Source of the DNA: a virus
IMG/VR virus record: IMGVR_UViG_3300043464_000831
Coordinates: 1 to 35,386 of that record
DNA length: 35,386 nt
Strand: one strand, 5' to 3'
Numbering within the stretch: the first letter of the stretch is position 1; each line of letters begins with the position of its first letter. Positions 29,422 through 35,362 of the stretch are shown here, piece by piece. Both the position numbers and the translations under genes were made by a program. The notes under the pieces were generated by a model, which was not told where the DNA came from, searched no databases, and saw nothing but the letters and a program-made list of their open reading frames with translations.

Positions 29422-29785
29422 CTCTCGGCTGGCAGATCCCGTGACGCCACTTGCTAACCTTGCTTTGCGTGTTGCAAGGCTCCTCTCGCCGCCTGCTGTC
29501 GTAGTGCTTTTCCCTGACCGCCCTAGCCCGCTGCTCAACCCACGGCGACAACGCCAGCCCGTCTAGCGATGCCGCATCGTCCTCGGGCGTCGGTGCCTCA
29601 GGCTCGTCAGCCGGGTGCAGCGTCCTGCGTGGCAACTTGTACCGCTGTGCCCACTTCGTGACGGTGGAACAGGCCACGCCAAACCGCTTGGCAATCTCTG
29701 ACGATGGAACTCCTTCCGCCCACAGTTGGTGCAGCAGCACGACATCCGCCCGCGAGTGGTTGCGTGATACGTCGCTGGCTTTCAT
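29411..29785 (-). CDS. Helix-turn-helix protein
   Basis: The 124-residue protein has a clear helix-turn-helix at about residues 20-50 (WAEGVPSSEIAKRFGVACSTVTKWAQRYKLP), of the resolvase or transposase type. A Pro/Glu/Asp linker and a second helical, basic half with PWVEQRARAVREKHYDSRRRE follow. The ATG overlaps the clamp stop as ATGA and has GGAGG upstream. It may regulate early or middle genes. Confidence 0.7.
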   Translation of the reverse strand: MKASDVSRNHSRADVVLLHQLWAEGVPSSEIAKRFGVACSTVTKWAQRYKLPRRTLHPADEPEAPTPEDDAASLDGLALSPWVEQRARAVREKHYDSRRREEPCNTQSKVSKWRHGICQPRGVA

Positions 29786-30900
29786 GCGTCCTCCGCAAGC
29801 GGCATGATCACGCCCGTGTACGGGCCACAGCGTAGAAGCACGCGGCTCTGTGCGTCCTTCACGTACACGTCAACGTGCGGCTCTTCGTCGGCCGGCAGGT
29901 TCGCTAAGAACTGGGCCAGATACTTAGGGTCCAGCTTCGTTGCCGACGTTGAGCCAGCCGCGATCGTCGGGCAGATCACTTTGCTCTCCCCGTACTCGCT
30001 CGAGCGGCCAACGAGCACCAGCGTGTTGGCCGTCCACGTCAGGCTGATGCCCTTGGACTGCTCGCTGGTGACGATGGCTGCGGACTGCACCGCCTGGAGC
30101 AGCTCCACCACGTCAATCACCGTAGGCTCGCCTTCCGCCTCGCCAACCACGTCACGCCACCGTGGATAGCGGCCGTCCACGAGCCGGCCCGTAATCGTGC
30201 AGCCGTCCAGCGAGAAGCGAACCTCTTTGCCGTTGGACTCAACCTGCACGCTGCCGTCACCCGTGGCCATGCTTGCCACCGTCGCCAGCAACCTGGCCGG
30301 CACGATGGTCTGCGAGGCGTCTACGGCATCGTCACTCTCTGTCTCCACGCACGCCAGCCGGCGGCCGTCCGTGCCAACCCAATGCTGACGCGAACCGTCT
30401 GCGGTTGACTCCACGTCAAGCATCACGCCGCCGAGTGCGTAGCGGCTGGACTCTGTGTCGGTGGCGTACGTCGTGGCCTTAGCGGCCCGGCAGAACTGGT
30501 CCGCAGGCAGGCGGCAGATGGCCTTCAGATCGCCAGCGTCCCACGTCGGGAACTCTGCAGCGTCCTCTGTTGGCAAAGTCCACGAGCCAGAGCCACACTT
30601 CACCGTGACGCTGGACTCGCCAACCTTAAGCACCACCTCGTCGCCGCTTGCGGCCCGCAGAATGGCGCTGAGCCGATGAGCCGGCAGCAGCATGGCGTCG
30701 CTGTGGTAGTCGATCTCGCGGTCTATACGCACCTCGAGATCCGTGCCCGTCAGCAGCCCGTCACCTAGTCGGACGTTGGCCAGGATGGGCTTCGCGTGCC
30801 TTGTCGGGACAGCCCTGAGCACGTCGGCAAGTGCCGCCCTGAGCGTTAAGGTTGCCAGTGTGATTCCAGTCGTTTTCCGTTCCTTCGTTGCAGTTGCCAT
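29782..30900 (-). CDS. dnaN: DnaN-like DNA polymerase sliding clamp
   Basis: The 372-residue protein is full length for a bacterial beta clamp and shows its three-domain course: RAVPTRHAKPILANVRL near residue 30, SSRYALGGVMLDVES near 150, GTDGRRLACVETESD near 175, GRLVDGRYPRWRDVV near 240, and the end YTGVIMPLAED. Clamps ring DNA and tether the replicative polymerase. No polymerase gene is seen, so it should work with the host DNA polymerase III or compete with the host clamp. Its start region overlaps the membrane protein gene by 140 bases. The N-terminal about 15 residues (MATATKERKTTG) extend beyond a usual clamp. Confidence 0.92.
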   Translation of the reverse strand: MATATKERKTTGITLATLTLRAALADVLRAVPTRHAKPILANVRLGDGLLTGTDLEVRIDREIDYHSDAMLLPAHRLSAILRAASGDEVVLKVGESSVTVKCGSGSWTLPTEDAAEFPTWDAGDLKAICRLPADQFCRAAKATTYATDTESSRYALGGVMLDVESTADGSRQHWVGTDGRRLACVETESDDAVDASQTIVPARLLATVASMATGDGSVQVESNGKEVRFSLDGCTITGRLVDGRYPRWRDVVGEAEGEPTVIDVVELLQAVQSAAIVTSEQSKGISLTWTANTLVLVGRSSEYGESKVICPTIAAGSTSATKLDPKYLAQFLANLPADEEPHVDVYVKDAQSRVLLRCGPYTGVIMPLAEDA

Positions 30901-33826: not shown

Positions 33827-34063
33827 TTAGTCGCTGGACTCCGGTGGTGGCACGCAACTGACGGGCGTGTGCCTGACGGTGGGCTCATAGACCTCCAGGC
33901 GGGCAGTGGCATCACGCAGCTGCCGCTGGAACACTTCGGCCAGAAGACGCTCGCGTGCCACGGCGTTGCCCTGGGCCAAAGCCCATGCTGCCATGCGGGG
34001 CAAGTGCATCTGCTCGAGCTTCTCGGCCACAGTCTTGGCGTCGATAACGAGTGGCTCGCTCAT
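33827..34063 (-). CDS. Hypothetical protein, 78 aa
   Basis: The protein is helical (VIDAKTVAEKLEQMHLPRMAAWALAQGNAVARERLLAEVFQRQL) and starts with ATG overlapping the RecT-like stop (ATGA) behind GAGGTG. Its coupling to the annealing protein suggests a partner in recombination; the sequence shows no nuclease motif. Unrecognised. Confidence 0.6.
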   Translation of the reverse strand: MSEPLVIDAKTVAEKLEQMHLPRMAAWALAQGNAVARERLLAEVFQRQLRDATARLEVYEPTVRHTPVSCVPPPESSD

Positions 34064-34914
34064 GCGTGCACCTCGTGCTCGGCGGCCTCGTGCTCAAACG
34101 CCACGCCATCGTCAGAATCGCCCAGCATCTCGGCCCGGTGCAGCATCAGTTGCACGAGTTCGTCGTGCTCGGCTTTCGTGAACCTGCCTTCCGTGAGCCG
34201 CTGAGCCACCAGCGTTCGCAGACGGTTTAACGCCGTGATGCTGTCGGCCTTGCTCACCGCCAGGCGGGCGTTGCCAAGTGCATCACTGGCAGCCGCCGGC
34301 TGATCCGCCTTGAGTTTCACCACGGTGGCCTTGGGCTCGTCGGTGAACTTAGGCCGCACCACCACGGGCTCAGGCTGCGTCGGGTAGTCCTGGGCCTCTT
34401 CGGCCGTCACAAGCCCACGCAGCACGTCAGGGAAGGCGTCACGCAGGGCGAAGCCTCGGGCACGCAGCTGCAGCATCCGCTTGGGGTACTGAGTCCATGG
34501 GCCAGACTTTCCCCACAGCCCAGCACGCTTGGCGTCGGCCACGCTGAACTTGATGGCAGACGGGGCTGGGTAGCCACGCCGCTTTGCAATGCAGGTGGCA
34601 ACCATCTGGTCGCCGTCGCCCTCAACTGCCTCGCTGACAAACTCGCAAACGGACGAGCTCTGCACCAAGGCTAGCGCGGCATCGCCCCAGATGGTTGGCC
34701 GTCCGTTGATTACGGCGATGCACTGTAGAGACTGCATTGGGCCGAGCCCAAGCTCTGCGCCGTGTTGTCCTGCGAGCATGCAAGACTCAGGCTTGTTTTT
34801 GAAATCCTTGGGGGCAAAGTCAGTCTTTGCCACCATTTGCCAGAACCGCCATGCGTCATCGAACGTCTGAAGAGCCAGCCCGCTGGCTCGTTGTGTGCTG
34901 ATTTCCGTGGTCAT
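34060..34914 (-). CDS. recT: RecT-type single-strand annealing protein
   Basis: The 284-residue protein has the RecT/Bet-like pattern: FWQMVAKTDFAPKDFKNKPE near residue 25, GLGPMQSLQCIAVINGRPTIWGDAALALVQ near 57-86, CIAKRRGYP near 110, then GLWGKSGPWTQYPKRMLQLRARGFALRDAFPDVLRGLVTAEE. It anneals single strands in recombination-based phage replication. No partner exonuclease is recognisable. The C-terminal about 80 residues are a linker and an acidic helical tail. The ribosome site is AAAAGGG, and a terminator-like hairpin lies just upstream. Confidence 0.9.
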   Translation of the reverse strand: MTTEISTQRASGLALQTFDDAWRFWQMVAKTDFAPKDFKNKPESCMLAGQHGAELGLGPMQSLQCIAVINGRPTIWGDAALALVQSSSVCEFVSEAVEGDGDQMVATCIAKRRGYPAPSAIKFSVADAKRAGLWGKSGPWTQYPKRMLQLRARGFALRDAFPDVLRGLVTAEEAQDYPTQPEPVVVRPKFTDEPKATVVKLKADQPAAASDALGNARLAVSKADSITALNRLRTLVAQRLTEGRFTKAEHDELVQLMLHRAEMLGDSDDGVAFEHEAAEHEVHA

Positions 34915-34937
34915 CGCGTCCCTTTTCTGCGTTGTTG

Positions 34938-34969
34938 AAAAAAGCCCGCTCTGCGTCCTGCTCGGCGGG
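34938..34969 (-). terminator. Terminator or attenuator upstream of recT
   Basis: On the minus strand CCCGC and GCGGG (34965-34969 with 34945-34949) enclose a 15-base loop and are followed by C and TTTTTT (34938-34943). It comes after the gene at 35048-35290 and before recT, so it should be read through or bypassed to express recT. Two dyads at 34992-35031 lie just upstream. Confidence 0.55.
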
Positions 34970-34991
34970 TGAATCGTGCGTCCCTGCTACT

Positions 34992-35031
34992 GCGGTTCCA
35001 CCGCTCTCCTTCCGCTAAACGGTTCCACCGT
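34992..35031 (-). promoter_or_regulatory. Two tandem perfect dyads with GGA loops
   Basis: GCGGT-TCC-ACCGC (34992-35004) and ACGGT-TCC-ACCGT (35019-35031) are both perfect five-pair dyads with the same three-base centre, 27 bases apart. As minus-strand RNA each forms a stem with GGA in the loop. They could be operators, or RNA sites for an antiterminator or a CsrA-like protein, controlling the terminator 20 bases further on. Confidence 0.6.
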
Positions 35032-35047
35032 CTCGCGGTCCCTTGTT

Positions 35048-35348: not shown

Positions 35349-35362
35349 GGGGGGGGGGGGGG
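35349..35362. repeat. Poly-G run, right end
   Basis: Fourteen consecutive G residues precede the right terminal repeat, matching the 16-G run at the left end. Confidence 0.8.

Follow-up and report, generated by a model that had tools for sequence, protein, structure and literature searches.

A conserved GGA-rich RNA element preceding the annealase genes of environmental phages, a candidate Csr/Rsm-type RNA

Anatomy of the element in the window

What kind of signal is formed by two short dyads lying just ahead of the recT gene of an environmental phage, and what might recognize it? The window, i.e., the whole stretch of DNA analyzed, spans an entire IMG/VR virus record (35,386 bases) and codes for an integrase, a portal protein, a terminase, RecT, RusA, and a phage beta clamp. 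The latter is a DNA polymerase III beta clamp with all three domains (window 29782-30900, minus strand). An earlier note on this DNA had described two dyads with identical loops and a terminator hairpin, and had proposed that they control the recombination genes in cis. On the plus strand, the dyads are GCGGTTCCACCGC (34992-35004) and ACGGTTCCACCGT (35019-35031), with identical loops and starts 27 bases apart. In RNA from the minus strand, which is the recT strand, each forms a 5-bp stem closing a GGA loop, and the fifth stem pair differs compensatorily between the two (G-C versus A-U). The third hairpin (CCCGC...GCGGG, 34969-34945) begins 22 bases further on in the transcript; a C and then T6 (34943-34938) come after it. 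The gene layout confirmed the position ahead of the recombination genes, since the structured RNA sits between the small gene (35290-35048) and recT, all on the minus strand, early in a long one-strand operon. The earlier description was accurate for the twin hairpins and the terminator-like hairpin but omitted the outer stem of H1, the AAGGAG linker, the ANGGAX mini-hairpin, and the 5′ GGA (Table 1).

Table 1. Coordinates of the RNA element and flanking features in the window
Feature	Position	Strand	Basis or remark
RecT-family ssDNA annealing protein	34060..34914	-	Pfam RecT, E = 2.9e-7; PHROG 561, E = 3e-47
recT ribosome binding site AAAAGGGACG, one more GGA	34917..34926	-	Sequence
T6 tract after H3	34938..34943	-	T-run enrichment in relatives
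Whole structured RNA, ~105 nt	34938..35043	-	Covariance model R1 positions 1-101 plus T tract
Hairpin H3, CCCGC/GCGGG, inner GC[AGGAC]GC, terminator-like	34945..34969	-	98.9% of cells paired
Mini-hairpin GC[AGGGAC]GC	34978..34987	-	General form GC[A N GGA X]GC
Hairpin H2, GGA triloop 34999-34997	34991..35005	-	Contains dyad 34992-35004
Linker AAGGAG, 6 nt, H1 to H2	35006..35011	-	GGA in 89/90
Hairpin H1, GGA loop 35026-35024	35012..35038	-	Dyad 35019-35031 plus outer stem; window fold
5′ unpaired GGA, AGGGACC in window	35039..35041	-	GGA in 81/90; relatives mostly AAGGACC
Small upstream gene, SH3/Tudor/KOW-like barrel plus N-terminal helix	35048..35290	-	AlphaFold pLDDT 77

We then compared these features with chance expectation. 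In dinucleotide shuffles of the whole window, twin dyads of the 5-3-5 form with the same loop within 60 bases occurred 0.02 times on average and were observed once in the real sequence. Seven GGA motifs fall within a 110-base stretch, a count reached in 6 of 7,056 windows on either strand (a figure that may include the element itself) and marginal against shuffles of the stretch's own dinucleotides (5.7%). The main support is the conservation of the element across relatives rather than its GGA count.

Covariation and distribution among related phages

Eighty recT relatives were fetched from IMG/VR, and the DNA preceding their start codons was compared. A block of approximately 100 nt recurred upstream of these genes, with variable stems and constant loops. 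In a MAFFT alignment of 23 near-gapless members (A2), which is independent of the covariance model, 96.5% of cells were paired and changes on both sides were seen at 16 of 26 pairs, a result equaled by none of 500 shuffles. The covariance model R1, built from this alignment and then used for searches, gave one match per locus, on the recT strand, at nearly all loci; by cmsearch, the window scored 105.7 bits (E = 3.8e-20; 34943-35043, minus strand), being itself among the training sequences of R1. Among 90 distinct sequences, 93.5% of pair cells were paired and 23 of 26 pairs showed double compensatory changes (408 such cells), counts that refer to sequences and not to evolutionary events and that come from an alignment fitted to R1, hence biased to the structure. 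None of 500 shuffles matched this alignment, and sliding the partners lowered the pairing to 26-38%.

Along the element, the stems diverged but the GGA persisted. All 11 pairs of H1 had changed on both sides, double changes occurred at all 6 pairs of H2 (97% of cells paired) and at 4 of the 5 pairs of H3, and the GGA was retained in the loops of H1 (79/90), H2 (88/90), and H3 (70/90). Although H2 was not formed in the minimum-energy fold of the window alone, relatives of the window do form it and the alignment supports it. Both pairs of the mini-hairpin were formed in all 90 sequences, with the outer pair swapped from G-C to C-G in 9; its GGA was present in 89, and the A two positions before it was kept while the intervening N was truly variable (A, G, C, T). 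The AAGGAG linker or a close variant was found in nearly all of the 90 sequences, the H1-linker-H2 geometry was nearly fixed, and the mean was 7.4 GGA per RNA. In distant members of shorter form, H1 is missing, whereas H2, H3, and the GGA linkers are retained, and ACGGAG is found among their motifs. The dyads were in this way upheld as conserved hairpins with paired changes in relatives and near-invariant GGA loops.

A simple terminator scan missed H3 because its 15-nt loop holds a 2-bp inner stem. However, TTT, TTTT, and TTTTT occurred within 12 nt after H3 in 78, 54, and 22 of the 90 relatives, respectively (background, 7.6, 1.6, and 0.5%), and at 12 to 24 nt beyond H3 in only 5, 1, and 0. 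Given this enrichment of TTTT right after H3, the terminator-like end is a conserved feature, with a T run that is short in many relatives. The distance from the 3′ end of the RNA to the next start codon, counted as the first one preceded by a GGA, was 23 to 56 nt in 90 of 90 sequences. The fold of the RNA, the conservation of its GGA motifs, its terminator-like end, and its fixed place before a gene start are established by these comparisons.

Related contigs with the RNA number well over 100. When a DNA pattern was searched for without reference to recT, at least 120 stretches were obtained, of which 80 (L212-L289, L040, and L049) were checked. Among these listed matches, recT adjoins the RNA in 60 and lies further downstream in 8, including two more distant annealases. 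A Sak4-like AAA ATPase follows the RNA at six of the matches listed (L212, L239, L258, L266, L280, and L289), a second RecT-like protein follows it at two (L236 and L275), and a Bet-like annealase lies one gene after it at L217; at the remaining checked loci listed, the contig ends before the downstream gene. The RNA is therefore not always adjoined by recT, which may be replaced by a Sak4-like, Bet-like, or second RecT-like gene or lie one gene away, and because the RNA is kept when the annealase is swapped or a gene is inserted, it belongs to the locus and not to recT. The proposal of a cis control of recombination genes holds insofar as the element precedes them, but a link to recT alone was too narrow. 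At some loci, the RNA lies approximately 560 to 620 nt upstream, before one inserted gene. This gene, without a Pfam match, separates the RNA from recT at L005, L009, L013, L026, L047, L057, and L073, and the same kind of protein is encoded ahead of the Bet-like gene of L217.

Upstream, the small SH3-like gene directly precedes the RNA in roughly 55 of the 90 loci, and no gene was found directly upstream in 30. When a preceding gene is present, it almost always belongs to this family (x..EYLAAVAG...GDFVSG...W.GR...DITH). The protein matched no Pfam or PHROG family, and its predicted structure gave weak SH3-fold matches, NusG among them. Its candidacy as the RNA-binding partner was not retained, as it offered an SH3-type fold only and no confident relative.

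Homopolymer C/G tracts of 8 to 18 bases were also observed in the noncoding DNA that precedes the RNA or its operon, both in the window (35349-35362) and at 22 related loci. These 23 of 90 loci represent a roughly 10-fold excess over other fetched DNA, with contexts such as GGCAnnnnnTTGC(C)n, and the tracts are possibly a slippage or promoter element.

There is essentially one copy of the RNA per phage, second copies being weak matches except in IMGVR_UViG_3300042453_001089 (54.8 kb; L022 and L275). This record carries two strong copies, each before a different RecT-type gene, and represents a single phage with two such loci or else an artificially joined contig. The 11-mer twin was also considered as a wider element and rejected: it occurs in 13 other IMG/VR stretches with spacings that are all multiples of three, the two that were read (L083 and L089) are tandem repeats, and only L085, which shares a contig with L007, represents the element itself. 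Cultured phage relatives were limited to those with RecT below 60% identity, and none was informative.

Resemblance to Csr/Rsm RNAs and competing explanations

How might such an element act? The best reading, to which we assign a probability of about 0.45, is a phage Csr/Rsm-type RNA that would bind a host CsrA-type protein and end by termination at H3, while transcription escaping this termination would enter the annealase operon. It is favored because the element has the same composition of parts as RsmZ, an RNA of 127 nt with four stem-loops, eight GGA motifs, and a rho-independent terminator (PMC4005645). The phage RNA, at approximately 105 nt, likewise has four hairpins, the last one terminator-like, and seven GGA motifs against the eight of RsmZ. 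More generally, it shares with RsmZ, RsmY, and CsrB a length of approximately 100 to 130 nt, seven or eight GGA motifs in and between hairpins, a terminator-like 3′ hairpin, and a canonical ANGGAX hexaloop on a stem. Several of its GGA motifs lie in hairpin loops and in single-stranded linkers, and at least one ANGGAX loop sits directly on a stem, GC[ANGGAX]GC being found in most sequences. The CsrA-type parallel drawn in the earlier note thus proved stronger than proposed, given some six conserved GGA sites, one of them an ANGGAX hexaloop whose mini-stem covaries, and a conserved 3′ end of terminator-like form.

CsrA/RsmE proteins bind ANGGAX hexaloops on a stem better than loops lacking the N or GGA without a stem, and these better than paired GGA (PMC4005645). 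In the Csr/Rsm-type reading, five to seven GGA motifs would be presented by fixed linkers and by the loops of covarying hairpins and bound by dimers of a putative host partner of the CsrA family, with the ANGGAX mini-hairpin and the AAGGAG linker as the predicted strong sites and the triloops and H3 as weaker ones. H3 and its T run would act as a weak intrinsic terminator ending the transcript, which could then accumulate as a small RNA and draw CsrA off host and phage mRNAs, while the fraction reading through H3 would continue into the annealase operon. The retention of the RNA despite a change of annealase or the insertion of a gene suits a job wider than one gene.

Unlike Csr/Rsm RNAs, however, this RNA occurs in phages and sits in an operon, 23 to 56 nt before a gene, a Y-R pair closes two of its loops, both GGA triloops, it matches no sequence family, and CsrA binding is putative. 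No Rfam match at gathering score was found in the window, and searches of the element region and ten relatives at lax thresholds returned no match either, including none to a Csr/Rsm family. The RNA family itself is thus unrecorded, while its working type (Csr/Rsm) is known. The main difficulties for the Csr/Rsm-type reading are that the H1 and H2 triloops are poor CsrA sites and that the phages are without csrA, none having been found in 35 phage records. GGA in tight or paired contexts is bound weakly by RsmE and RsmN (PMC4005645, PMC3791407), and the loops of H1 and H2 have 3 nt and a closing pair, which is pyrimidine-purine in nearly all H2, and are without the A two positions before GGA. 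Because closed triloops bind weakly, H1 and H2, the most regular parts of the element, are suboptimal as sites for CsrA, and their YGGAR loops may have a different reader. The identical GGA loops, which the earlier note took for the key feature, are thus real but a small part of the element and its least CsrA-like sites (PMC4005645, PMC3791407).

A put- or nut-like leader is possible but rather doubtful. In this reading, the hairpins and linkers would contact RNA polymerase directly or else a protein such as the KOW-like product of the small upstream gene, and transcription of the whole operon would proceed beyond H3 and the terminators after it. HK022 put makes polymerase resistant to terminators via the beta′ zinc-binding domain, has two stem-loops in approximately 70 nt, and lies, as putR, approximately 270 nt from its promoter (PMC9378689). 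The phage element resembles put in having two neighboring hairpins with a constant linker, in a nearly fixed H1-linker-H2 geometry, and in its place early in an operon, but two more hairpins follow, and the element is longer (approximately 105 nt), with four hairpins in all and repeated GGA, and comes from a different phage group, whereas put is known from lambdoid phages. The arrangement between a small gene and a terminator-like hairpin resembles nutR-tR1 of lambda, where nut acts with N and NusG. The conserved loop on a variable stem and the adjacent single-stranded box add to this resemblance, and weak structural matches of the upstream SH3 barrel include NusG; in contrast to lambda, no boxA or boxB was recognized and no N-like basic peptide was found upstream. 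Antitermination would also fit an RNA kept in essentially one copy per phage whichever annealase follows. Against it, the upstream gene is absent next to the RNA in a third of the relatives, no promoter was mapped in the region scanned, and six separate conserved GGA motifs are left unexplained by put, for which we know of no GGA requirement.

Control of translation in cis, with a GGA-binding protein of host or phage on the element also covering the ribosome binding site and repressing the first gene, appears unlikely. The proximity of the next start in 90 of 90 sequences, with a GGA in its ribosome binding site, corresponds to the classical place of CsrA action (PMC4005645), and GGA motifs upstream of and within the ribosome binding site recall CsrA-repressed leaders of the hcnA type. 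Unlike such leaders, however, the phage RNA has a conserved independent fold and a terminator-like end. The distance to the ribosome binding site varies, extra hairpins occur in the gap, and an AAGGA ribosome binding site is ordinary. As the following gene is not constant and the terminator-like hairpin stands between the GGA sites and the ribosome binding site, translational control alone is the less likely explanation.

Shine-Dalgarno mimics docking 30S subunits, as a standby site or a ribosome decoy, are very improbable: AAGGAG is invariant in most sequences and AGGA is repeated, but the mini-hairpin leaves the base before GGA free and keeps the A two before it, i.e., A-N-GGA and not anti-Shine-Dalgarno pairing, the short forms carry ACGGAG, and no conserved start codon follows. 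A leader peptide was considered as well, as the two GTGGAACCG repeats are in frame after AAGGAG (GTG GAA CCG CAG TAG), and was rejected because many relatives have lost this GTG from H2 (GGCGGAGCC). Finally, operators acting as DNA or chance repeats, for which the short palindrome-like form of the dyads would speak, have a negligible probability, since in the 90 sequences both stem sides change in step while the loops stay constant, compensatory changes that exclude ordinary operators as the main explanation, and a scan of the region found no sigma-70 promoter between the dyads.

Likely hosts and significance of the RNA family

In sequenced genomes, the RNA turned up twice in the Phycisphaerales MAG UBA4658, on separate contigs, once before RecT and once before a Bet-like gene; this MAG has two csrA genes, in line with the Csr/Rsm-type reading. 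It was also found on one contig of a Burkholderiaceae MAG, an occurrence that may be a binning error. Planctomycetes are accordingly the likely hosts, and we infer that this phage group probably infects them. A search of 392 genomes of the phylum under strict filters gave no match to the RNA in host chromosomes in general, an empty result that says little. At least one csrA gene was present in only 43 of 119 sampled genomes of the phylum, which weighs against the Csr/Rsm-type reading. A planctomycete CsrA read from L207 (MLVLSRKKDESIVINNDITIVVVEIRGDKVRLGIEAPKDVPVHRREVFEAI) has a canonical appearance, with the VHR stretch present. Five planctomycete genomes (G051, G072, G027, G090, and G108) show an unusually expanded CsrA family, with 9 to 17 csrA-like genes each.

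Phages and plasmids are already known to carry csrA genes (PMC7366521), and no phage RNA decoy of CsrA was found in the open-access literature, nor any description of a phage RNA near recT, a CsrA-titrating phage RNA, or a planctomycete structured RNA of this kind. A broader picture, in which phages of planctomycetes would use a widespread family of Csr/Rsm mimics, with a sponge RNA made from the recombination-operon leader disarming host CsrA in the course of infection by phages with no csrA of their own, is offered tentatively.

Taken together, these results describe a structured RNA family with very strong covariation that occurs throughout one environmental phage group and is tied to the annealase locus irrespective of the type of annealase. 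If bound by CsrA, it would be a phage RNA decoy seizing a global posttranscriptional regulator and would provide a first handle on Csr control in Planctomycetota, for which the literature searched contained no Csr RNA. Should it prove to be an antitermination leader, control of the put/nut type would be extended to a distant phylum. Under either reading, the element is short and directly testable.
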